Notes under the pieces: generated by a model
What the model was told of the DNA's origin: nothing
Databases searched by the model: none
The model's input: only the letters and a program-made list of their open reading frames with translations
Assembly: GCA_003202005.1 (NCBI GenBank)
Contig: QJJF01000009.1
Coordinates: 1-64,000 of the forward strand
Reading direction: 5' to 3'
Source of the DNA: Williamsia faeni
Lineage (GTDB): Bacteria; Actinomycetota; Actinomycetes; Mycobacteriales; Mycobacteriaceae
Length of the DNA: 64,000 nucleotides
Made by a program: the position numbers and the translations under genes
Shown here: positions 1 through 11,444 of the stretch, piece by piece
How the letters are laid out: every line of letters begins with the position of its first letter
How positions within the stretch are numbered: the first letter of the stretch is position 1

Positions 1-194
1 GTGACAGACACAGCACCTAAATTGGCACTAACAATCCATCGACACACTATCGAGTTCTCAAAGAACACACCCACAACCAACTTCGACACCCACATCGTGA
101 GGCCATCCTGGAAGGGATATTTGTTGTCTTACCGCAAGCTGTCTCGTTTCCGAGGCAACTTTTCAAGCTTACCCGACTCACATCCGGTCCGCAA
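1..194 (-). promoter_or_regulatory. rRNA operon promoter and leader (16S beyond left edge)
   Basis: Read on the minus strand, this stretch carries a -35-like TTGCGG (189-194), a 17-bp spacer and a -10-like TAAGCT (166-171). It is followed by a leader containing the boxA-type element TGTTCTTTGAGAACTC (52-67). That element, followed by AATAGTGTG-like sequence, is characteristic of actinobacterial rRNA leaders involved in antitermination. Transcription runs leftward out of the window, so the rrs gene should lie just past position 1. A TTGACC at 271-276 may be the -35 of a second upstream promoter, but its -10 is poor. The leader assignment is strong; exact start sites are inferred. Confidence 0.8.
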
Positions 195-640
195 CTCGCC
201 GCCTTCGCGGTCCGTCACCACCCGCGCTGAAACACCCCACTCGAAAGCGGATCTGATTCATAACTTGGGCGGTCAACGTTGTTCCTTCAGGAAAGACTCC
301 CTGTCGGTGTTACCGGCCCCGGCCTTCTTGCTCTCCAGTGCCTCACTCGCTGACTCGACAAAAGTTACGGGAACACCACACCCACCGTCAAATCGCCTGG
401 TCCGCAATCGATTCGAGATGCATCAGTGCAGGTCAAGGCCCTGCCGCGTTAGCCAAAACCCTGGGCCGGCGCCCCTTGCCGGCGAAAGTTGTCATTGTGA
501 TGACCGCCACCGAGGCGATCGCTGCGCGTTGGATTGACAACACGTCTGGCGCCACTGCAGCCGAGGCCTGACCGGAAAGTGCTCTCCTACCCACCTTTTG
601 GACAGTTACTCCAGAGCCCGGGTGGTCGTACCGTCAGGGA
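195..640. other. intergenic, no convincing gene
   Basis: This holds the upstream part of the leftward rRNA promoter region and the region before mftM. Open frames run across it in both directions but lack conserved features or plausible ribosome binding sites. A TTGACA hexamer at 534-539 could be a -35 for mftM, but no matching -10 is visible. I see no RNA gene here. Confidence 0.5.
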
Positions 641-1486
641 ATGGCGATCGCAACGCTCAACTCCGGCCGATACGAATCGAATGGTGTTGCGGTGCAACGC
701 CTTCTGCACGAGATCCCAGGACTGGCCGCGATCGACGTGAAAGCACATCGGACTGCCGGCCAGGCCGTCCACCTGACCCACAGCTTCGGGCTCGAGTCGA
801 TCTCCGACGCGGCGATGGTTGCCGAACTGCTGAAGCTGGTGGAGTGCGGCGCCTTGTCCGGACAGGACGACTTCGAATCCGCGGCGCTCGGTCTTGTGCT
901 CACCTGCGCTGACGATCCGGCGCTGTGCTGGCAGGCATTCTACGACAACTCCCTCGACGAGCTGGCGAGCGGCAGGTCGCCGTTTGCGTCCGTCCACCAT
1001 CGAGCTCTGTCCCAACTCGCCGGGTCCAGTGTCCTGGAGGTGGGAAGTTGCTTCGGTTTCTTCGCACTACGTGCGGCACTCGCCGGGTTCGACGTGCAGG
1101 CCTGCGACATCTCTTCGGGCGCGGTGAATCTCCTGCGCACCGCCGCCGGGCGCCTCGGGCTGCAGGTGCAGGCGCGCGTCGGGGACGCACTCGCCCTCCC
1201 GTACCCCGACTCCTCGGTCGACACCGTGACGCTGATCCACCTGCTCGAACACCTTCCATCGCATGTTGACCAGGCGATTTCCGAGGCGCTACGAGTGGCT
1301 CGCAAACGGGTGGTCATCGCGGTGCCGTACGAGGATGAGCCCAGCCCCCACTTCGGTCACCGTCACGTCGTCACGCCCCAGACACTTGTCGCCTGGGCGA
1401 GGCAGGCCGACCATGCCGGCGCGGAGATCTTCGAGGACAACGGCGGATGGCTGATCCTCGACGTACCGCCGGCTCACGCCTCCTAG
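641..1486 (+). CDS. mftM: SAM-dependent methyltransferase, probable mycofactocin oligosaccharide methyltransferase MftM
   Basis: A 281-residue class I methyltransferase. The SAM-binding motif I is seen as VLEVGSCFGFFAL (about residues 131-143), followed by the acidic DVQACDIS strand and a motif IV/post-I region near VDTVTLIHLLEHL. MftM methylates the glucose chain of mycofactocin, the peptide-derived redox cofactor that re-oxidises NDMA-dependent dehydrogenases. In M. smegmatis the gene lies beside the mnoSR/mno locus. Here it is convergent with mnoR and close to mno, which is the main reason for the specific name. Position 641 is the first start codon after the in-frame stop at 569-571; the upstream AGGGA is unusually close to the ATG. 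The methyltransferase fold is certain and the substrate is inferred from context. Confidence 0.75.
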   Translation: MAIATLNSGRYESNGVAVQRLLHEIPGLAAIDVKAHRTAGQAVHLTHSFGLESISDAAMVAELLKLVECGALSGQDDFESAALGLVLTCADDPALCWQAFYDNSLDELASGRSPFASVHHRALSQLAGSSVLEVGSCFGFFALRAALAGFDVQACDISSGAVNLLRTAAGRLGLQVQARVGDALALPYPDSSVDTVTLIHLLEHLPSHVDQAISEALRVARKRVVIAVPYEDEPSPHFGHRHVVTPQTLVAWARQADHAGAEIFEDNGGWLILDVPPAHAS

Positions 1487-1508
1487 ATCAACTGCCTCCT
1501 AGATCAAC
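1478..1508. repeat. 15-bp tandem direct repeat over two convergent stop codons
   Basis: The sequence GCCTCCTAGATCAAC occurs at 1478-1492 and again at 1494-1508. The first copy contains the TAG that ends mftM on the plus strand. The second contains the CTA that is the TAG stop of mnoR on the minus strand. Each copy carries a TAG in both orientations, so a local duplication appears to have separated two 3' ends that once shared sequence. Confidence 0.85.
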
Positions 1509-2170
1509 CCCCGCTTGCTGGCCAGGTACACCGCTTCGGTGCGCTTACTGACTCCCAGCTTGCGGATGATGTTCCTGATGTGGAACTTCACCGTCGACGG
1601 CGAGATGTACAGCGTCTCGCCGATCTTCTTGTTGGCACAGCCATCCGCCAGAAGGCGAAGTACCTGCCGTTCGCGCTCGGTGAGTGTCTCGGGGTTCCCC
1701 TGACCGGTCACCGCCCGGAGCACCACCGCGGCGCTGCGTGGGTCGAAAGCACTGTCACCTCGTGATACCGACTTGATCGCCCGCACCAGTTCGGTGGTGT
1801 CGATGTCTTTGACCACGTATCCCTTGGCGCCACTGCGGACCGCACGGACCACCAGTTCGTCGTCGAGGAAAGTGGTGAGAACCAGTGTCGCGATCGATGG
1901 ATGCAGTCTCGACAACTCGCTGATCAGGCGCAGTCCCTCATAGTCGGCGCCCGCGGTCAGCTTGAGGTCCACGACCACCACGTCGGGGGCACACACACCG
2001 ACGCCTTCGAGTGCTTCCTCGACCGTATTGGCCTCTCCGACAACCGATATGGACTCCTCGCGTTCCAGAAGGGATCGCATCCCCTCCCGGAGCAGCGCAT
2101 GATCGTCCACCAGCATCGTCCGGATCGGTCCGGGACGCTCCCGACGGACGTGTTCGGCAGTACTCATCAC
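1499..2170 (-). CDS. mnoR: NarL/LuxR-type response regulator MnoR
   Basis: A 223-residue two-domain regulator. The receiver domain spans about residues 15-135, with the acidic pair D22/D23, phospho-acceptor D68, T100 and K121. A LuxR-type helix-turn-helix spans about 160-220 (LTERERQVLRLLADG, then STVKFHIRNI). It starts inside the stop codon of the kinase gene (ATGA overlap), so the two are translationally coupled partners. In M. smegmatis the MnoSR pair controls methanol dehydrogenase expression; the same arrangement here supports that role. Likely targets are the mno promoter and its own operon. Family assignment is certain; the name rests on synteny. Confidence 0.85.
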   Translation of the reverse strand: MMSTAEHVRRERPGPIRTMLVDDHALLREGMRSLLEREESISVVGEANTVEEALEGVGVCAPDVVVVDLKLTAGADYEGLRLISELSRLHPSIATLVLTTFLDDELVVRAVRSGAKGYVVKDIDTTELVRAIKSVSRGDSAFDPRSAAVVLRAVTGQGNPETLTERERQVLRLLADGCANKKIGETLYISPSTVKFHIRNIIRKLGVSKRTEAVYLASKRGLI

Positions 2171-3528
2171 GTGTTCCCCTTGTGCTCGGTCGGGATCTCG
2201 ACAACCACCCGGACGCCTCCCAGCCGAGAACGGAGGATCCGAAGATCACCGCCCAATTCCAGTGCGCGCGAGCGCATGTTGGCCAATCCATGGTGCCGTC
2301 CGGACAGATCACCGACGGTTGCTGCCCGCATCACCCGGCGCATGTGGTCGGGATCGCCGGTGCCGTCGTCGTCGACTGTGAGCCGGACATCATCCTCGCC
2401 GTACGTGAGCGCGACCTTGGCATGTGCGGCCCGGGCATGGATCGCGGTGTTGAACAGCGCCTCTCCCGCGATGCGCAGGATGGCGTGCTGCAGTTCGTGG
2501 GAGAGATCGCGTTGATTTCCGACCACCCTCACGTCGGTGCTCAGGTCTGCAGGCATGTGCATCGAACACAGTTCTTCGAGGATTGCGGTCAGGTCTCCCG
2601 TGCCGGCGGACGGCGTGTGGTTGAGCGTGTAGATGACCGATCGCACCTGCTCCACCGCGTCTCTGGTCAGCCTGCCGGCCACCTCGAGGCGCTGCGCGGT
2701 CTCCGGTTCGGCGTCGATGCGACAGACCTCGATCTGCACACCGGCCGACAACACCGACTGCGCCACCGAGTCGTGCAACTCGCGAGCGATCCGGGCCCGC
2801 TCGGTGTTGAGCACTTCCTGGCGCATCGCGGCGGACAGTTCCCGCTGCGTCTGTTCGAGTTCATGATTGCGTTCGGCCAGGTGTGTCGCGTGGCGCTGGC
2901 TCTCCTCGTACGCGCGCTCGACCTGGACCAGCAGCGCCTTGCTCTCTTCGAACAATGCCGCGTTCAGCAACGCAACGGTCGCCTGGCCGGCCAGGATCCT
3001 CAGCACCACGACGTCCGTCGGATCTATCCCCTGCGTGAGGGGGACCCAGGCGGAGAGTCCCCCGACGACCTCACCGTTGAGTTCCACCGGGACGTGGACG
3101 TGATGGTCCTCGATGACCGGCCGGCCCAGGCTCGCCACCTGACCACGCAGAATGTCGTTGAGGCGGTTGAGGACGACGTCGGGCAGACCGCCCGGTTCGA
3201 TCGCGGCGTCCACGCCTTCGAATGCGTAGACCACACCCGCAGCATCCATCATCAGATGCCGGGGTCCTGTCCGTTCCAGCCGACCGTCGGTGAGCGCAAA
3301 CAGCACCCATTCGGCGCCGAGGTGTTCCCGGGCGGCATCGACCACCGCGATCACCAGCGCCTCGGGCCCCGCTGCGGTCTGCACCAATGCTCGGGAAATC
3401 CGTTCCAGGGCACCGACAACACGTGTGAGCCGCTGCTCCACGCCACGAAACTGGGCGTAATGCGTCTTCTTGACCGACCGGAGCCCGACGAGTGTTTCGA
3501 GGTTGTCGGCCTTGCCCTCGGGAGTCAC
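2167..3528 (-). CDS. mnoS: GAF-domain sensor histidine kinase MnoS
   Basis: A 453-residue cytoplasmic kinase with no membrane segment or signal peptide. A GAF-like sensing domain covers roughly residues 40-195 and a coiled coil 200-245. The HisKA_3 dimerisation helix carries phospho-acceptor H252 in ARELHDS. The ATPase domain follows, with an N box near residue 360 (FNTAIHA), the DDDGTG box near 386 and a GLANM box near 415. The gene starts within the stop of the upstream alcohol dehydrogenase-like gene and its own stop overlaps mnoR, so all three should be made together. A soluble kinase implies an intracellular signal, perhaps an alcohol, aldehyde or redox state of the pathway (inference). 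Confidence 0.85.
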   Translation of the reverse strand: MTPEGKADNLETLVGLRSVKKTHYAQFRGVEQRLTRVVGALERISRALVQTAAGPEALVIAVVDAAREHLGAEWVLFALTDGRLERTGPRHLMMDAAGVVYAFEGVDAAIEPGGLPDVVLNRLNDILRGQVASLGRPVIEDHHVHVPVELNGEVVGGLSAWVPLTQGIDPTDVVVLRILAGQATVALLNAALFEESKALLVQVERAYEESQRHATHLAERNHELEQTQRELSAAMRQEVLNTERARIARELHDSVAQSVLSAGVQIEVCRIDAEPETAQRLEVAGRLTRDAVEQVRSVIYTLNHTPSAGTGDLTAILEELCSMHMPADLSTDVRVVGNQRDLSHELQHAILRIAGEALFNTAIHARAAHAKVALTYGEDDVRLTVDDDGTGDPDHMRRVMRAATVGDLSGRHHGLANMRSRALELGGDLRILRSRLGGVRVVVEIPTEHKGNT

Positions 3529-4691
3529 AGCGCGTCCAGATAGAGACCGGCGACCGTGTCCTGGTCCGGTTGGCGCGGATTGGTGGTCATACAGGAATCG
3601 GCCAGCGCATGGACGGACAACGTGGTGACATCGGACTTCTGCACACCCAGCGGCGTCAGGCTGCTGGGCATACCGATCCGGGCCGCGAACTTCGCGACCT
3701 CATCAGCCAGGCGGTCGGCGACCGTCATCGGCGACCCGTCCGTCGCAATCCCGATCGCACCGGCCAAATCTACGAATCCGTCGGCGCACACATGCGCGTT
3801 GTACCGGATGACATGGGGCAACAGCACTGAATTGATCGCTCCGTGTGGGGCGTCGCAACGGCCGCCGACAGGATGACTCATCGCGTGCGCGGCCCCGAGG
3901 ATCGCATTGGTGAACGCCATCCCGGCCTCGAGCGACGCGTACGCCATCGCCACCGACGCCTGCGGATCCGACGGCTCGTCGACAAGCCTTTCCAGATTGC
4001 GCCAGGTTGTCGAAATAGATTGCAGTGCAAGGTTATCTGTCATGCGGCTACGCGCAATCGAGACGTACGCCTCGATGCAGTGCGTCAACACGTCCATCCC
4101 GCACTGTGCGGTCACATCTGACGGAACGGTGGCGAGTACCCGGGGATCGACCACTGTCACATCCGGGACCAGCCCGCGTCCGATGATCGTGATCTTGGTG
4201 GCGCGCGCCGGATCGTTGACGATGCAGAACTGCGATACGTCGGATCCACTGCCCGCGGTCGTCGGGATCGCGACCACCGGCGGCAACGGCTTGCTCGCTC
4301 GATCGATGCCCTCGTATTCGAGGATGTGTCCGCCGTTGGAGGCAATGATCGCAACGCCTTTGGCGGCATCGATCACCGAGCCACCACCGAGCGCGATGAT
4401 CCCGTCGCAACCGGCGTGTGTGTACGTTTCGAACGCCGCGGTGATCTCTCCGGCGCGAGGATTGGGTGATACGCCGGTGAAGTGTTTCGCATGCAGTCCC
4501 ACGGCCACGATCCGGGTGATCAACTCGTCGAACCAGGCGGTCGCGGCAACCCTGGCGTCGGACACCAACAGGGGACGGCGCATCCCGAGCCGCGAGGCCG
4601 CCAGCGCGGCCTCGGCGAGTGCACCTTCACCGATGATCATCTCGGGTGCGTGGAACTTGACCACCCGAGGCGACGGACTACTGCGCGTCAT
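3525..4691 (-). CDS. iron-containing alcohol dehydrogenase, possible ErcA-type regulatory protein
   Basis: A 388-residue type III (iron-dependent) alcohol dehydrogenase. The nucleotide-binding GGGS is at 102-105. The metal ligands appear intact with canonical spacing: D200, H204, H269 and H283. Family members oxidise alcohols or reduce aldehydes with NAD(P). This gene overlaps mnoS by an ATGA junction and so belongs to the sensor operon rather than directly to mno. In Pseudomonas an ADH-like protein, ErcA, acts with sensor kinases in control of ethanol oxidation, so a sensing role is possible here. With all ligands present it could equally be an active enzyme. AGGAATGGAAG before the ATG supports the start. 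Confidence 0.8.
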   Translation of the reverse strand: MTRSSPSPRVVKFHAPEMIIGEGALAEAALAASRLGMRRPLLVSDARVAATAWFDELITRIVAVGLHAKHFTGVSPNPRAGEITAAFETYTHAGCDGIIALGGGSVIDAAKGVAIIASNGGHILEYEGIDRASKPLPPVVAIPTTAGSGSDVSQFCIVNDPARATKITIIGRGLVPDVTVVDPRVLATVPSDVTAQCGMDVLTHCIEAYVSIARSRMTDNLALQSISTTWRNLERLVDEPSDPQASVAMAYASLEAGMAFTNAILGAAHAMSHPVGGRCDAPHGAINSVLLPHVIRYNAHVCADGFVDLAGAIGIATDGSPMTVADRLADEVAKFAARIGMPSSLTPLGVQKSDVTTLSVHALADSCMTTNPRQPDQDTVAGLYLDAL

Positions 4692-4818
4692 CTTCCATTC
4701 CTACTCCGGCTCCGCCCCGTCGCACGCCGCGATTCCGACCCAGGTCCAACCCTAGTGAAGTGCCCGGCCACCCGGACTGTTTCGCACGCCTCGCTGCAAA
4801 CCTTCCCGCCGGCACCTG

Positions 4819-6348
4819 TCACGACAGCGCGTTCCCGACCTCATCGGCGCGCTCGATCAGTTCGGCGGCATCACGTGCCGACACCACGGCGTCGCAGTGG
4901 GCCGAGTAGTCGGTCATCCCACATCCCGCCTGCTTCCAGTAGCGCGGTGGCTCCGGCGTGACCCAGGCCAGACGATGGGTGCGGCGGCGCAGCTCGCCCA
5001 GCAGCTCGGGCCGGGCCGGGAATCCATTGCTGCGGGCGTCTCCGACGAACAGCACGCTCGTCCGCCGGTCCAGCAGGCCACCGTGAGTGGTCAGCAACCT
5101 CTCCAACACCTGCCCGTAGTCGCTGGTGGCGGCCAGGTCGAGTCCCGGCGCCGACAAAACCCGCGTCAGCGCATCGTCGCCATGGCCGACGAGCAGAGGA
5201 GTGGTCACGTCCACCGGATCGTCGACAAACGCCAACACGGTGCAGCGATCAGCGATCTCGTGCATCGACTGGGCCATCCGCAGGATGAAGCCGGCGACCG
5301 GTCGTACGGACAGGGACACATCCGCGACGATGAGCAACCTGATCCGTCCCGGGACCCGGGTGCGGCGGTACAGATGTACCGGGTCACCGTCGGTCTTCAG
5401 CGCCGCCCGCAGTGTGTGCCGGATTGCGAGTCGTCCGCTCCCCTGTTGCCGGGCGCGGGTACGCGGGGCACCCCGCATCCGGCGCACGATCCGGTGACAG
5501 GCCTGATCGATGTCGGCGCGGGACACCGGCGCGGTCTCGGTGGACGCCCCCGCAGCCCCGGTGACGTTCGCCGGTGGCGTCCAGGCGGCCACAAAGGCCT
5601 CGATGGCGGCGAGCAGATGATCGAGCTGGGCGCTGCCGAGATCGTCGCCGGTGGCCCGGCCGTACACCCGCCGAGCGTCGTAGTTGTCGAGGCCGGCCAG
5701 TACCGCGGCGGCATCAGCGACGGTGAGAACACCGGACCGGACCCGCATCGGCGAGGATGCCATGTCCCCGACGTCTGCGGCGCCGGCGTTGTCAACTTCG
5801 ATCGTGTAGGTGATTCCGCCGGACACCGAGTCCGAATCAGGGTCCACGGCAAGGGATTCCGCGCCGGACGAGACGGTAAAGTCATTCTCTTCGCGGTGCG
5901 CGGAATCGCCGTGCCGCTGCTCGGCTTCCGGATCGTCGTCGAAGAGATCGCCGATCTCCTCGGTGTGTTCGTCGGCACCGATCATCCGGGAGGCACCTTC
6001 GAACTCCCCGTCCCACCCGAATTCCTCTGGCAGACCACCGGGCGTACCGCGGACCTTCGGCAACGAGTCCGCGTCAGCGGTGGCGGGCGGTCCATCGACG
6101 AACAACGCCTGGAAGACCGCCTCGAAAGCCTCGACCTCATAGCCGTACTTGACGGTCACCGACTTCAGCGCCGGACGCAGTGTCGACAGCTCGCTGCCAT
6201 AGATCGCGAGCACCCGGCGCACTTCGATCGTCTCGGCGGGCGACACCCGGACCCCACACCGGCGCAACATCCGGCTGAATGCGCCGGCCACCACATCGAG
6301 CACCGGGTCGCGACGGGCCGGTTCGCGAGACATGGTGCCGCGGTGCAT
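4819..6348 (-). CDS. CoxE-like VWA-domain protein
   Basis: A 509-residue protein with a C-terminal von Willebrand A domain. The metal (MIDAS) motif is visible as D343-x-S345-x-S347, with T408 and D437 (GDARSN) in the expected order. The N-terminal third is helical, and residues about 85-205 are acidic and probably disordered. CoxE-like VWA proteins work with MoxR AAA+ ATPases to remodel or mature enzymes, as in CO dehydrogenase (CoxD/E), nitric oxide reductase (NorQ/D) and Rubisco (CbbQ/O). AGGAGGT inside the end of the upstream moxR gene sets the start, with only 6 bp between the genes. Maturation of the neighbouring methanol dehydrogenase is the likely job (inference). Confidence 0.8.
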   Translation of the reverse strand: MHRGTMSREPARRDPVLDVVAGAFSRMLRRCGVRVSPAETIEVRRVLAIYGSELSTLRPALKSVTVKYGYEVEAFEAVFQALFVDGPPATADADSLPKVRGTPGGLPEEFGWDGEFEGASRMIGADEHTEEIGDLFDDDPEAEQRHGDSAHREENDFTVSSGAESLAVDPDSDSVSGGITYTIEVDNAGAADVGDMASSPMRVRSGVLTVADAAAVLAGLDNYDARRVYGRATGDDLGSAQLDHLLAAIEAFVAAWTPPANVTGAAGASTETAPVSRADIDQACHRIVRRMRGAPRTRARQQGSGRLAIRHTLRAALKTDGDPVHLYRRTRVPGRIRLLIVADVSLSVRPVAGFILRMAQSMHEIADRCTVLAFVDDPVDVTTPLLVGHGDDALTRVLSAPGLDLAATSDYGQVLERLLTTHGGLLDRRTSVLFVGDARSNGFPARPELLGELRRRTHRLAWVTPEPPRYWKQAGCGMTDYSAHCDAVVSARDAAELIERADEVGNALS

Positions 6349-6354
6349 GATCCG

Positions 6355-7440
6355 CTACCTCCTGCTCGCCGACCGGGCCCGGCCGGCACCGAATGCCGCC
6401 GCGGTCACCGAGGCCCCCGGACTGCTGCCGTCCGCGGCGATCTCGGTGGAACCCCGGGACTGGTCCGGCTGCTTTTCCCGGCCGAGATTCTCCAGTGCGG
6501 TGTCGACATCGGCACCGAACTTGACCAGGAGTGACAACAAGGCCCGGGTCCGGTCAGGTGAGTCGACACCCAGGAATGAGGTGGCCCGCGCCGCATCGAT
6601 GACCTCGGCGATCGACGGGCTCTTGCGCAGCGCCATCGCCCGCAACCGGCCGGCCAGCGCCACCACATCGGCGATCGCGGACTCCTCGATCTCCGGGGCT
6701 CGCGTGGCGATGATCTCGCGTTCGGTGGCCGCATCGGGATAGTCCACCGCGTAATGGATACAACGCCGCTTGAGCGCCGCGGACAGCTCTCGAGTGTCGT
6801 TGGACGTCAGGATGATCCACGGCTCCGAGCGTGCCGTGAAACTTCCCAGCTCGGGGATGCTGACCTGTCGTTCGGCGAGCACCTCCAGCATCACCGCCTC
6901 CATCGCCTCGTCGGTGCGGTCGATCTCGTCGATCAACAGCACCACCGGTTCAGGCGACAGAATTGCCGCCAGCAGCGGCCTGGCCACCAGGAAATCCTCG
7001 GTGAAAACACCGACGTCCTTGCGGGCCAGGGCCGCCGAGGCGGACGCCAGATCCTCGTACTCGGCGAGTTCCGCGGTGATCCGATCGCGGAGCATCTGGA
7101 CATGAAGAAGTTGGCGGGCGTAATCCCACTCGTACAGTGCCCGGGCATCATCGAGGCCCTCGTAGCACTGCAAGCGGATCAGCCGACGTCCTGATGCCGC
7201 TGCCAGGGCTTTGGCGAGTTCGGTTTTACCCACGCCCGCCGGCCCTTCCAACAGCAACGGTCGTTCCAGTGCGGTCGCGAGGTGCGTCACCACCGACAGG
7301 TCGCGGTCGATGACGTAATCCACCTCCCGGAGTGCGGCGGCCAACGCCGCCGGACTGTCGAACCCCACCGAATCGAATTCCACAGAACCCGAACCACTTT
7401 CGCTTGCATCGGAATGAGCTACTTCCGCCAACTCGGTCAT
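6355..7440 (-). CDS. MoxR-family AAA+ ATPase
   Basis: A 361-residue AAA+ ATPase. Walker A is GPAGVGKT (66-73), Walker B is VVLLIDE (166-172), sensor 1 is in ILTSNDTREL, and an arginine-finger region follows in LKRRC. The C-terminal tail of about 50 residues is Ser/Ala/Gly-rich and probably disordered. MoxR ATPases act as chaperones with a VWA partner, which here is the next gene downstream (6-bp gap). It lies 43 bp after mno and is probably cotranscribed with it. Similar MoxR genes occur in PQQ-type methanol dehydrogenase operons, although Mno is an unrelated enzyme. The substrate is not shown by the sequence. Confidence 0.85.
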   Translation of the reverse strand: MTELAEVAHSDASESGSGSVEFDSVGFDSPAALAAALREVDYVIDRDLSVVTHLATALERPLLLEGPAGVGKTELAKALAAASGRRLIRLQCYEGLDDARALYEWDYARQLLHVQMLRDRITAELAEYEDLASASAALARKDVGVFTEDFLVARPLLAAILSPEPVVLLIDEIDRTDEAMEAVMLEVLAERQVSIPELGSFTARSEPWIILTSNDTRELSAALKRRCIHYAVDYPDAATEREIIATRAPEIEESAIADVVALAGRLRAMALRKSPSIAEVIDAARATSFLGVDSPDRTRALLSLLVKFGADVDTALENLGREKQPDQSRGSTEIAADGSSPGASVTAAAFGAGRARSASRR

Positions 7441-7483
7441 GCTGTCCTTCCCTGCCGTATGCCTCGCCCGCGTCTACCGGATG

Positions 7484-8755
7484 TCAGTACGTACCGGTGA
7501 ACGCGTGGGTGACCAACGGGATCAACGAGTTGACGGTGGACTCACGCGGGTTGCCCGGTGTGCACCAGTCCCCCATCATGTGTTCGGCGACTGCCTGGAT
7601 CTGCTTGTCCGAGGTGTCCATCTTCTCGCCGCGGCCCTCGTACTTGCCGGTGTTCATCCGGTTCTTGTCGTAGGTGTTGGTCCGCAATGCACCGAAGTTG
7701 TCCGGGATACCGAGATCCTTCGACAACCGGATCGCCTCTTCGACCGCGGCGTCTGCCGCCTGAACGGTGGTCATCTTCGAGGTGTCCACGCCCATCAGGG
7801 CCGCGATCTCGGCATAGCGCTCGAAGCGGGCCGGCAGGTTGTACTCCCAGACGCGCGGCAACGCGATGGCGTTGTTCAGACCGTGATGGCTGTCGTAGAA
7901 CGCGCTGACCGCATGCGACACCGAGTGGACCAGACCCAGACCGCCCGAGTTGAATGCCTGTGCCGCAATGTATTGCGCGTGCATCATGCCGGTACGGGCT
8001 TCGAGATTACGGGGATCGTAGACCGCGGTCCGCAGGTGCTTGGTGATCAGTTCGATCGAATATTTTGCGTTACCCAGTGATGGCGCGAAGTCCAGCCGCG
8101 ACACATAGGGCTCGCTGGCATGTGCCAGGACATCGAACCCACAGAACGCGGTGAAATGCTCGGGGCACGAGTAGTACAGCAGCGGATCGTCCATCGCCAG
8201 GTCGACCAGGCAGGTGTCATCGAAAGCCACCCACTTATGGGGATTGTTCATGTCGGAGGTGTCGGTGATGACGTACGCCCACGACGTCTCCGACCCGGTT
8301 CCGGCCGTGGTCGACACCGCGATGTGCTTCGGGTTCTCCTTGTTGGTCGCCTTCGAGAATCCCTCGAACTCATTGATGTTGCGCCCGTCGTGGGCGATCA
8401 CCATTCGGGCACCCTTGGCCGCGTCATGGCTCGAGCCACCACCGACCGAGATGATGCCGTCGCACTTCTCCGACTGGTACAGCGCGGCGGCGTCCATGCA
8501 GTTGTAGTCCTTGGGGTTGGACTCCACCTGATCGAAGAGCACCACGTCGACGCCCTGGTACTCGATCTTGCCGATCAATTCTTCGATGATCCCCGAACCG
8601 CGCAGGCCCGTGGTCATGAGCAGGATCCGGGACATCCCGAGATCCTTCGCCTCGACACCGATCATGTCGTGGGCGCCGACGCCCAGTTTGGCTTTGGGGA
8701 AAGGATGGAACTCCTTGATGGGGAAATCCCAGATCTGGTTGAGCTCGATGGCCAT
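7484..8755 (-). CDS. mno: NDMA-dependent methanol dehydrogenase (Mno/Mdo)
   Basis: A 423-residue iron-type alcohol dehydrogenase relative that oxidises methanol and other primary alcohols to aldehydes. It keeps its NAD(P) tightly bound and passes electrons to an external carrier, NDMA in vitro and mycofactocin in vivo. The start MAIELNQIWDFPIKEFHPFP is typical of actinobacterial Mno. The nucleotide GGGSSHD motif and the metal-ligand regions DVLAHASEPYVS and HSVSHAVSAFYDSHHG are visible. I chose the ATG at 8755 over one 14 codons upstream because AAGGAGA lies 8 bp before it. It heads the minus-strand run into moxR and the VWA gene, with MnoSR and mftM nearby. Confidence 0.9.
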   Translation of the reverse strand: MAIELNQIWDFPIKEFHPFPKAKLGVGAHDMIGVEAKDLGMSRILLMTTGLRGSGIIEELIGKIEYQGVDVVLFDQVESNPKDYNCMDAAALYQSEKCDGIISVGGGSSHDAAKGARMVIAHDGRNINEFEGFSKATNKENPKHIAVSTTAGTGSETSWAYVITDTSDMNNPHKWVAFDDTCLVDLAMDDPLLYYSCPEHFTAFCGFDVLAHASEPYVSRLDFAPSLGNAKYSIELITKHLRTAVYDPRNLEARTGMMHAQYIAAQAFNSGGLGLVHSVSHAVSAFYDSHHGLNNAIALPRVWEYNLPARFERYAEIAALMGVDTSKMTTVQAADAAVEEAIRLSKDLGIPDNFGALRTNTYDKNRMNTGKYEGRGEKMDTSDKQIQAVAEHMMGDWCTPGNPRESTVNSLIPLVTHAFTGTY

Positions 8756-8876
8756 GGCCTGACTCTCCTTGTTCGAGGGCAAAAACTGTTGCCCCACAAG
8801 GATGTTGCCCAGATCACAGTCAGGACAAGGTCACCTGTCCGTGCCCCGGCAAACAACGTCCGGACCGCCAGCTACC
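8756..8876 (-). promoter_or_regulatory. mno upstream region with direct repeats
   Basis: On the minus strand the leader of mno carries GGGCAACA twice, at 8803-8810 and 8787-8794, exactly 16 bp apart and just upstream of the ribosome binding site. Direct repeats spaced by about one and a half helical turns are possible contacts for a NarL-type regulator such as MnoR, or could lie in the transcribed leader. I see no convincing -35/-10 pair. Confidence 0.4.
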
Positions 8877-8900
8877 GCACCTGCCCAAAGGGTCAGGTGC
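8877..8900 (-). terminator. hairpin terminator after murA
   Basis: The sequence GCACCTGCCC-AAA-GGGTCAGGTGC forms a stem of ten pairs with one bulged base and a three-base loop, starting 10 bp after the murA stop. It separates murA from the mno locus. No clear U tract follows, which is common for actinobacterial terminators. Confidence 0.6.
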
Positions 8901-8909
8901 CCGCACGGG

Positions 8910-10187
8910 TCAGTACCCCGGCTTCGAATCCATCGTCACGCGGACGATCTCGCCGCCGAGGCTGCGCATGATCTCCACAAAATCGGGATAGCCACGATCG
9001 ATGTGCGAGACGTCGTGCACCTCGGTCACACCGTCGGCCACCAGGCCGGCGAGGACCAGCCCGGCCCCGGCGCGGATGTCCGAACTCCAGACCGGCGCGC
9101 TCGAGAGCTGTTCGATACCCCGGATGACCGCGTGATGACCATCGGTCCGCGCGTCGGCGCCGAGCCGCACCATCTCCTCGACAAAGCGGAATCGCGCCTC
9201 GAAGACGTTTTCGGTGATGACCGACATGCCATCGCTGATGGCCGCCAAACCGATGGCCATCGGCTGGAGATCGGTCGGGAACCCCGGAAACGGCAGTGTC
9301 GAGTAGTTGACCGCCTTCGGCCGGTCGTCCTGGACGACACGGAACCCGTCGTCGAACTGGGTGACCTTCGCCCCGGCCCCCACCAGTTTGGACAGCACCA
9401 GCTGCAGGTGCCTCGGATCGACGCCACGCACCGTGATGTCGCCGCGGGTCATGACCGCTGCGATCGCCCAGGTGGCGCCGACAATTCGGTCGCCGATCAC
9501 CCGGTGGGTCACCGGCATCAGCCGCTCGACGCCCTCCACCGTCAGAGTCGAGGTACCTTCGCCGCTGATCTTGGCGCCCATCTGCTGCAACATCACGCAC
9601 AGATCGACGATCTCCGGCTCCCGGGCCGCGTTGTCGATGGTCGTCACACCCTCGGCCAGCACCGCCGCCATCAGGATGTTCTCGGTGGCGCCGACCGACG
9701 GGAACTCGAGACTGATCGGCGCACCGATCAGCTTGTCCGCCTCGGCGACCACGCAGCCGTGTTCGATCACACTGTGAGCGCCCAGCAGTCGTAGGCCGGC
9801 CTGGTGCATGTCCAGCGGCCGTGAACCGATCGCGTCTCCACCGGGGAGTGCGACAACGGCGCGGCGGCAACGCGCCACCAGTGGTCCGAGCACGCAGACC
9901 GAGGCCCGGAACTGCTTCACCGCATCGAAGTCGGCGTGGAACTTGGGTTCTGCCGGCGTATCGATCACCACGGTGTCGCCGTCATGGCTGACAACAGCAC
10001 CCAGACCTCGCAAGACCTCGGCCATCAACGGAACATCGAGGATCTGCGGGCAATTGGTGATGGTCGTCCTGCCCTCTGCGAGCAACGCCGCAGCCATCAA
10101 CTTCAGAACGCTGTTCTTGGCGCCCACGACTTCGACCTCACCGGTCAGTCGTGCGCCCCCGGTCACCAGAAAACGATCATCAACCAC
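8910..10187 (-). CDS. murA: UDP-N-acetylglucosamine 1-carboxyvinyltransferase MurA
   Basis: A 425-residue cytoplasmic enzyme for the first committed step of peptidoglycan synthesis, transferring enolpyruvate from PEP to UDP-GlcNAc. The conserved K24-N25 pair is near the N terminus. The PEP-site loop reads [11 protein letters not shown] with D118 where most bacteria have the fosfomycin-reactive cysteine. The same Cys-to-Asp change explains intrinsic fosfomycin resistance in mycobacteria. The GTG at 10187 is the only start after the in-frame stop at 10197-10199. It follows the SRPBCC gene by 54 bp on the same strand and is followed by a hairpin. Confidence 0.95.
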
Positions 10188-10783: not shown

Positions 10784-10797
10784 TAGGTTTGCTGTCA
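10784..10797 (+). promoter_or_regulatory. predicted leaderless promoter for the adenosyltransferase
   Basis: A -10-like TAGGTT at 10784-10789 lies 7 bp before the ATG at 10797. Transcription would start at or next to the start codon, and no ribosome binding site is visible. Leaderless mRNAs are common in Mycobacteriales. The -35 is weak. Confidence 0.45.
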
Positions 10798-11444
10798 TGG
10801 CTGTTCATCTGACCCGCATCTACACCCGTACCGGCGACGCGGGAACCACTGGACTCAGCGACTTTTCGCGCGTATCCAAGAATGACCCCCGAGTGCTGGC
10901 ATATGCGGACTGCGACGAGGCCAACGCCGCCATCGGCGTTGCGCTGGCGATGGGCAATCCGTCCACAGAGATCGCCGACGTCCTGCGGCGCGTGCAGAAT
11001 GACCTCTTCGATGCCGGTGCCGATCTCTCGACCCCGGTCGTCGACGACCCGAAGTATCCGCCGCTGCGCATTCTGCAGAGCTACATCGACGACCTCGAGG
11101 TCTGGTGTGATCACTACACCGACCAGCTCGAACCGCTCAATTCGTTCATCCTGCCCGGCGGCAGCCCACTGAGTGCGTATCTACACGTCGCTCGCACGGT
11201 CACCCGCCGTGCGGAACGAACGGCGTGGGCGGCCATCGAAGCATTCCCGGACGACACCAGTCCACTGCCGGCGCAGTACCTGAACCGGCTGTCCGATCTG
11301 CTGTTCATCCTCTCCAGAATCGCCAACCCGGGCGGCGACATCCTGTGGCAGCCGGGCGAGCAGCGCACGCGGGCCCAGTCGGACCAGTCGGCTGCCGAAC
11401 ACAGCACAGCCGACAACGATCTTGCTGCAGCGCAAGAAGATTGA
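10797..11444 (+). CDS. PduO-type ATP:cob(I)alamin adenosyltransferase
   Basis: A 215-residue enzyme that transfers the adenosyl group of ATP to cob(I)alamin to make coenzyme B12. The ATP-binding TRTGDAGTTGL motif is at the N terminus. The RRAER segment and the NRLSDLLFILSR motif, which holds active-site residues of the trimer, follow. The last 35 residues are a polar tail outside the family core. It is divergent from the SRPBCC gene and abuts the DUF2550 gene tail to tail with no gap. The orthologous position in M. tuberculosis is Rv1314c. Confidence 0.9.
   Translation: MAVHLTRIYTRTGDAGTTGLSDFSRVSKNDPRVLAYADCDEANAAIGVALAMGNPSTEIADVLRRVQNDLFDAGADLSTPVVDDPKYPPLRILQSYIDDLEVWCDHYTDQLEPLNSFILPGGSPLSAYLHVARTVTRRAERTAWAAIEAFPDDTSPLPAQYLNRLSDLLFILSRIANPGGDILWQPGEQRTRAQSDQSAAEHSTADNDLAAAQED

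Follow-up and report, generated by a model that had tools for sequence, protein, structure and literature searches.

We examined a 64,000-nucleotide stretch of DNA from Williamsia faeni (contig QJJF01000009.1 of assembly GCA_003202005.1; hereafter the window) in which murA and the upstream region of an rRNA (rrn) operon flank a block of alcohol-oxidation genes. The window is the start of a contig, C9, in a genome of 44 contigs, and its base 1 is base 1 of C9. One flank of this slot is murA (positions 8910 to 10187, minus strand; TIGR01072, 535 bits against a cut-off of 393). Beyond it, the minus strand carries mno (mdo), for a type I N,N-dimethyl-4-nitrosoaniline-dependent, mycofactocin-linked methanol/alcohol dehydrogenase (7484 to 8755; TIGR04266, 842 bits, cut-off 625), whose ATG start was read from the sequence at 8755. 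There follow madB, for a type I MoxR-type AAA+ ATPase without a His-rich tail (6355 to 7440; NF047784, 524 bits, cut-off 475), madC, for a CoxE-like von Willebrand factor A (VWA) protein (4819 to 6348; NF047783, 743 bits, cut-off 600; PF05762), and a gene for an ErcA-like iron-containing alcohol dehydrogenase (Fe-ADH; 3525 to 4691), the proposed alcohol-sensing partner of the kinase encoded next to it. That kinase gene, mnoS (madS; 2167 to 3528; NF047786, 653 bits, cut-off 500), specifies GAF-like and histidine kinase regions, and mnoR (madR; 1499 to 2170; NF047785, 342 bits, cut-off 300) a LuxR/NarL-type response regulator. On the plus strand, mftM encodes a mycofactocin oligosaccharide methyltransferase (641 to 1486; NF041255, 359.6 bits, cut-off 200), and the rrn upstream or leader region occupies 1 to 402 on the minus strand. 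The products Mno, MadB, MadC, MadS and MadR all exceed curated NCBIfam cut-offs within one block, and its identity as the known mycofactocin-linked mno/Mad alcohol-oxidation module is confirmed. The closest named relatives of the window's mno are from Williamsia. A first-pass annotation had placed a seven-gene mno module between murA and an rRNA leader; every gene lies where it was drawn.

The minus-strand row is tightly packed. mnoR and mnoS overlap by 4 bp, as do mnoS and the Fe-ADH gene, while madB and madC are 6 bp apart and mno and madB 43 bp apart; the 127 bp before the Fe-ADH gene is the sole larger gap. mftM converges on mnoR with 12 bp between them, and this convergence is widespread, with a median gap of 9 bp and a gap of at most 100 bp in 83 of 94 loci where the two genes face each other within 3 kb. 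MnoS matches the HisKA_3 and HATPase_c domains, its GAF_2 match falls under the cut-off, and inspection by eye saw no membrane segment. The core mycofactocin biosynthesis (mft) genes are outside the block, as the first-pass annotation had said, and the search it suggested for mftA-F elsewhere in the genome located mftC (642 bits), mftE, mftF, mftR and an mftA-like peptide ending in MCGVY on contig C1, mftB and mftD having been left out of the scoring.

Because the window starts at the first base of its contig and no 16S gene was found in this assembly (0 of 1, by a search of limited sensitivity that was positive in 9 of 14 control genomes), the rRNA genes themselves are not directly visible. 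Several matches place them nonetheless. The end of contig C12 repeats window positions 1 to 402 at 96% identity, C16 repeats positions 163 to 405 (97%), and C14 repeats two pieces (82% and 100%). In Williamsia sp. 1138 (L010), the region maps upstream of 16S, with the equivalent of window base 1 about 200 bp away from the gene; the first 75 bases of the window match rrn-adjacent leaders from other genera. We therefore expect 16S off the left end of the contig, some 200 bases before position 1. In nine loci with mno and murA (L009, L010, L011, L014, L015, L028, L029, L031 and L083), 16S motifs lie beyond mftM, the other loci brought in by mno with an adjoining murA ending before any 16S motif. 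Similarly, 16S follows mftM on the strand of murA in 17 of 17 module loci from Gordonia genomes with large contigs; in six further Gordonia loci (L167 to L172), the contig stops past mftM before any 16S appears.

We compared this murA-rrs interval with that of other genomes, as the first-pass annotation had advised. In Williamsia and Gordonia the genes are conserved as a block and not scattered. All nine Williamsia genomes, each with a strong mno match, have mno and MadS after murA. Of 59 Gordonia genomes searched for these three genes, 52 carry an mno on the strand of murA, less than 5 kb downstream of it. MadS was likewise present in 52 Gordonia; in 51 of them it stands no farther than 11 kb downstream of murA, and in the remaining one it is on a different contig. 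The recurrence of the arrangement in other genomes led us to reject a contig artefact. One record titled Kitasatospora arboriphila NRRL B-24581 (L013) also has a block nearly identical to that of Williamsia muralis in layout and identities, and probably represents a mislabelled or mixed genome.

Outside these two genera the slot usually looks different. Among 19 fetched murA loci from 12 other genera (eight from one genus; the twentieth region of the set held no murA locus), an rrn leader or 16S lies within 1 kb in 14, and the contig ends within about 0.5 kb in three. In L182 (genus g16), about 3.3 kb of other DNA (roughly 6222 to 9572) separates murA from the rrn leader and represents another occupant of the slot, and in L188 there is no rrn within 4.3 kb of murA. 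Three further murA loci have 16S within 1 kb (L099, L104 and L107), L122 has a leader about 2.3 to 2.5 kb away, and L123 and L124 have neither 16S nor leader within about 7 kb. The prevailing adjacency of murA and rrn agrees with the description of mycobacterial rrnA downstream of murA in the available part of PMC10218544. Such direct adjacency is not seen in the window, where the module follows murA. In a family-wide murA search, distances outside Williamsia and Gordonia come from the matches listed, and 11 same-contig pairs are 1.1 to 5.4 Mb apart. In genus g7 (L153), a type II trio is inverted beside murA, the sensor trio and mftM lie beyond it, and a leader match is found about 6 kb past mftM. 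From this comparison, the idea that the module became lodged in the murA-rrn slot in the Williamsia/Gordonia lineage is supported.

The first-pass annotation had offered two explanations for this location, a tolerant insertion site or a link between expression and growth. The former is the better fit, with at least five different slot contents within Gordonia. The latter, in which module expression would be tied to growth, or that of rrn to alcohol, could draw on the retention of the arrangement across Williamsia and most Gordonia and on palindromes, of the kind described below, that match at least 12 of 14 bases 484 to 985 bp upstream of 16S, before the divergent mftM, in 12 scanned loci. However, the rrn upstream region recurs at other contig ends of this genome, no match of the operator occurs within 1 to 402 (best, 8 of 14 bases), the convergent mftM stands between the module and rrn, and the same genes occur away from murA in Rhodococcus, Mycobacterium and Tsukamurella. 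Moreover, six of the 59 Gordonia lack both mno and MadS, and in four of these (L133, L134, L205 and L206) 16S or the rrn leader follows murA by about 0.6 kb or less. Another, L135, keeps arsR-cbiMNQO before 16S, and the last, L204, has no 16S or leader within 3.1 kb. With no sign of coupling in the sequence, on which this judgment is made, we set growth coupling through rrn aside as very improbable.

Within Gordonia the slot houses two alternative enzyme cassettes. Cassette I is mno1-madB-madC, of type I, and cassette II is mno2-madB2-madC2, of type II, with the two Mno types about 61% identical. Of the 52 occupied slots, 30 contain type I, 22 contain type II and none contains both. The gap between murA and mno1 is 150 to 941 bp; that between murA and mno2 is 3.1 to 4.8 kb and, in the loci read, is filled by arsR-cbiMNQO or cbiMNQO. 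The genes ahead of mno2 encode an ArsR/SmtB-type regulator, CbiM, CbiN, CbiQ and an energy-coupling factor (ECF) ATPase, the regulator going unmatched in L140 and L168. When one cassette II locus was scanned, CbiQ and ArsR scored above their NCBIfam cut-offs and CbiM, CbiN and the ATPase below theirs; Mno2 reached 690 bits against 625 for TIGR04266, and the divergent MadB and MadC reached 365 against 475 and 264 against 600. Fetched type II loci from outside Gordonia have no close cbiMNQO beside mno2. Ten Gordonia carry a type I mno away from the slot. In nine of them type II occupies the slot; the tenth (OPL2, L117) retains arsR and a remnant of a type II madC before Fe-ADH-mnoS-mnoR.

Type II genes are also found on plasmids. 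Those of Mycolicibacterium chubuense (L129), Mycobacterium dioxanotrophicus (L130) and Rhodococcus sp. ZPP (L131) carry mno2-madB2-madC2, with no Fe-ADH/mnoSR directly beside this cassette and no palindrome, and the regions of L129 and L131 also include methane/ammonia-monooxygenase-type genes. The three plasmid-borne mno2 are 83 to 85% identical to mno2 of the sputi type. Another recurrent neighbor of murA is a gene at window positions 10797 to 11444, which we take to be cobO, for a cobalamin adenosyltransferase-like protein; a gene with this label lies beside murA in nearly every locus read, whatever the slot content.

In a tree of 56 concatenated AtpD and MurA rows (FastTree), the type I Gordonia alkanivorans group is nested inside type II Gordonia (support of 0.961 and 0.978), and therefore at least one change of cassette is likely to have occurred in this genus. 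In a second tree of 66 rows in which Fe-ADH, mnoS and mnoR were all well matched, the 46 murA-slot rows form one clade (0.999 as printed), within which type I and type II trios separate; the exception is Gordonia effusa, with a type I enzyme and a trio that groups with type II. The sensor trios thus split with cassette type, and either the enzyme cassette by itself or larger parts of the block may have been exchanged.

The sensor half of the module contains a strikingly constant pair. In all 116 loci where mnoS was matched over at least 60% of its length, an Fe-ADH gene immediately precedes mnoS on the same strand. Among these are all 12 genomes traced by way of MadS. For 11 of them the fetched mno locus showed no mnoS; in three of the 11 it lies only about 10 to 19 kb off, and one has an mno contig of only 4.7 kb. 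One genome of the set (G304) has mno and mnoS on different contigs. Across the family, mno and MadS co-occur almost perfectly, both being found in 112 of 251 genomes, MadS alone in one and mno alone in none. A precedent comes from Pseudomonas, where a co-cistronic Fe-ADH/kinase pair controls the ped cluster and stands above an alcohol regulon, according to the accessible portion of PMC12997753. Because of the unbroken pairing and this precedent, we propose that Fe-ADH reports alcohol to MnoS.

The protein may instead be a second catabolic enzyme, a 1,3-propanediol dehydrogenase. Its domains are those of a typical Fe-ADH, and the parts of PMC11303327 available to us call MSMEG_6239 of Mycobacterium smegmatis a putative 1,3-propanediol dehydrogenase regulated by MnoSR, a description that speaks for this alternative and against a sensory role. 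However, the pairing persists where mnoS is apart from mno, and the best NCBIfam match is the regulatory protein ErcA (NF041833), at 434 bits against a cut-off of 550. Because this cut-off was not reached, we liken the protein to ErcA without filing it as such; the pairing with a histidine kinase that goes with ErcA is present. Given the Pseudomonas pair as well, we regard a purely catabolic role as possible but rather doubtful and favor Fe-ADH as a probable sensor.

Aligned mno upstream regions share one strong element, CCTGTCC-N4-GGACAGG. Its counterpart in the window, CCTGACC-N4-GGGCAGG, spans 8880 to 8897, with its center about 133 bp before the mno ATG and its edge 12 bp after the murA stop codon. 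We consider it very likely to be the MnoR operator of mno. The excerpted text of PMC11303327 reports an MnoR site 137 bp upstream of msmeg_6242 in M. smegmatis, and we compared the two by distance alone. Scores below are matching bases of 14, with a threshold of at least 12 unless stated. The palindrome reaches the threshold upstream of 8 of 8 Williamsia-type mno (center at -132 to -134), 24 of 25 Gordonia mno1 in the slot (127 to 151 bp upstream; G. effusa scores only 10), 7 of 7 Gordonia mno1 away from murA (127 to 129 bp upstream) and 16 of 18 Gordonia mno2. It is also found upstream of Fe-ADH (20 of 115), mftM (26 of 91) and cbiM (9 of 19, or 18 of 19 at a threshold of 11). Control upstream regions gave 0 of 77 for murA, 0 of 72 for cobO, 0 of 128 for moxR and 1 of 112 for mnoS. 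The scan behind these last two sets of counts left out the short loci L088 to L114, the flank loci L193 to L212 and upstream regions that were too short; for mno it also left out the window copy (L003), L086 and L087.

Over 2.8 Mb of fetched loci, 141 matches passed the threshold compared to 25 in one base shuffle, and 128 of the 141 lie within 350 bp upstream of a module-related gene (51 at mno, 27 at mftM, 20 at Fe-ADH, 19 at mno2, 9 at cbiM and 2 at mnoS). Natural controls, though few in number, follow the same line. The single cbiM locus without the element (L135) comes from the sole one of these genomes that lacks mno and MadS, and the three plasmid mno2 reach only 9, 10 and 9 of 14, one of these plasmids having an MnoS-like kinase about 6 kb beyond madC. 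When exact inverted repeats were counted without any consensus, the element ranked highest at mno1 (18 of 91, level with TAGAAC-N2-GTTCTA) and at mno2 (5 of 35), and its variants ranked highest at Fe-ADH (19 of 115).

Two other elements came to light. TAGAAC..GTTCTA, known from a Rhodococcus promoter primer and present upstream of mno1 in, for example, the Rhodococcus loci L035 and L080, was rejected as a general operator because it occurs at 18 of 91 mno1 and 0 of 36 mno2 and is absent in the window. Gordonia cbiM genes (e.g., in L118, L137 and L141) are also preceded by a conserved sequence close to CATCTGAATAAGTGGACAGATG, placed between the mno-type palindrome and cbiM, where the ArsR/SmtB-type regulator may bind.

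The first-pass annotation had read the inverted repeat in the window as a hairpin ending murA, to which its start 12 bp past the stop codon lends some color. The repeat is real, but no run of T follows it and a terminator scan does not list it. It is kept at mno1 copies far from murA and at Gordonia mno2, which cbiMNQO separates from murA. Because of this position in relatives, a murA terminator is refuted as an explanation, with a residual likelihood close to negligible, and the repeat is better assigned to mno as a predicted operator.

The type II proteins also bear on what MadB and MadC do. The MadB tail has at least eight histidines in 33 of 38 type II loci compared to 1 of 90 type I loci, and the type I exception (L058) is an over-long read. 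The first-pass annotation had called madB and madC possible maturation factors, an idea that these His-rich tails strengthen. Mainly from the His-rich MadB and the Co/Ni importer of cassette II, we suggest that MadB and MadC activate Mno, most likely as helpers in metal loading. Alternatively, they could be general chaperones, or factors that insert NAD(H) into Mno as a nicotinoprotein, with the metal link special to cassette II. This would accord with the near absence of His-rich tails in type I and with the chaperone-like maturation role given to MoxR ATPases in the accessible text of PMC3893208. Yet most type II MadB tails are rich in histidine, and Gordonia cassette II brings cbiMNQO and, mostly, an ArsR/SmtB-type regulator. 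We give the chaperone account a real but minority chance, and continue to prefer metal loading as the probable role. The richest His tails of all (27 and 24 histidines) belong to metagenome-assembled genomes of Anaerolineae and Geminicoccaceae (L086 and L087), where mno-madB has a weak MftM match (30 to 32%) nearby.

Taken together, these findings suggest how the module would work. An alcohol, or its state of oxidation, would be read by Fe-ADH and the kinase MnoS. MnoR would then bind the palindrome at 8880 to 8897, a step suggested by the conservation of this site and, in M. smegmatis, by published binding of MnoR upstream of mno (PMC11303327, in the sections available). This would turn on mno-madB-madC and, with or without separate starts, Fe-ADH-mnoS-mnoR. 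The AAA+/VWA pair MadB and MadC would activate Mno, probably through metal loading, and Mno would oxidize primary alcohols and pass electrons to mycofactocin, roles assigned in published work. PMC11778925, in the part at hand, treats Mno as necessary for M. smegmatis to use alcohols, names mycofactocin as its partner and describes a methylation role for MftM. The mycofactocin itself would be made by the mft cluster on contig C1 and methylated by MftM. The rRNA neighbor retains an upstream region of its own and, to judge from sequence, would play no part. We put the probability that the mno/Mad module in the murA-rrn slot works through Fe-ADH/MnoS, the MnoR palindrome, MadB/MadC and mycofactocin at roughly 70%.

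Several observations weigh against this reading. The operator counts for mno are partly circular because the consensus was drawn from mno upstream regions; those for Fe-ADH, mftM and cbiM are free of this circularity. In the consensus-free count, mftM has no common repeat (best, 3 of 91) and a different repeat leads for cbiM (12 of 19). Within the window the palindrome is within chance expectation (3 matches with at most three mismatches, 5.6 expected), and the upstream regions of its mftM and Fe-ADH genes score only 9 and 10 of 14. Outside Gordonia and Williamsia, the threshold is reached at just 12 of 51 mno1 and 2 of 16 mno2; mnoS is seen in most of these weaker-matching loci or genomes, and many of their sites are variants such as CCTACCCGATCGGACAGT. 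The counts are not independent because the loci are related and a species may be included twice. In M. smegmatis, the MnoR consensus is reported in a single genomic copy in the available text of PMC11303327. The window's own MadB lacks a His-rich tail, and metal loading is therefore extrapolated from the sister cassette. The separation of sensor trios by cassette type speaks against a simple account with a fixed sensor half, and the splits between Williamsia and its neighboring genera in the AtpD and MurA tree have almost no support (0.009 to 0.04).

A broader hypothesis is tentative, and we think it unlikely to hold in full. An MnoSR regulon marked by CCTGTCC-N4-GGACAGG would couple alcohol sensing to enzyme synthesis, methylation by MftM and metal import by CbiMNQO. 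MadB/MadC would be a metal-loading machine, the type II enzymes of Gordonia and of the monooxygenase-type plasmids would be Co or Ni enzymes, and the murA-rrn slot would be a site where type I and type II cassettes replace each other. In M. smegmatis grown on glucose, removal of mnoSR lowers msmeg_2607-2610, including CbiM-type cobalt transport genes, a drop that the authors discuss in terms of cobalamin in the part of PMC11303327 available to us and that fits a metal link. The alternation of cassettes, the unbroken Fe-ADH-mnoS pairing and the palindrome in common with a Co/Ni importer offer another reading of that result and point to direct tests of sensing by MnoS, of the role of MadB/MadC and of the metal in Mno. 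The gene module was already known; the arrangement and the predicted regulon are new. Among the titles and abstract openings of the literature matches listed, where subscription papers are poorly covered, we found no account of the module at murA-rrn, of two Gordonia cassettes or of an operator shared by MnoR and CbiMNQO.

Four known systems resemble parts of this locus. RavA and ViaA are a MoxR/VWA maturation pair in which, as with MadB and MadC, an AAA+ ATPase sits beside a VWA partner; unlike them, MadB and MadC are tied to an Fe-ADH-type nicotinoprotein, and type II MadB has a His-rich tail. The ErcA/YiaY and ErcS/PP_2683 pair of Pseudomonas likewise joins a co-cistronic Fe-ADH and histidine kinase above the control of alcohol oxidation. 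The Pseudomonas ped system has a hybrid kinase and pyrroloquinoline quinone (PQQ) enzymes, whereas the kinase here is GAF-like and has a LuxR-type regulator of its own, and the enzyme is mycofactocin-linked. The mycobacterial rrnA-murA locus has the same flanks, but in Gordonia a module of about 8.5 to 13 kb separates murA from 16S, and in the window the two would be about 9 kb apart if 16S is placed as in relatives. Finally, the M. smegmatis mno operon (msmeg_6242-6238, with mnoR as msmeg_6236) has mno, Fe-ADH, mnoS and mnoR in common with the window, and its MnoR site, 137 bp upstream in the available text of PMC11303327, compares with about 133 bp for the center of our predicted operator. 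In contrast to that operon, the genes here are flanked by murA and rrn, Gordonia has two alternative cassettes for the enzyme half, and the predicted operator, reported in one genomic copy in M. smegmatis, also precedes cbiM, Fe-ADH and mftM in part of the relatives.

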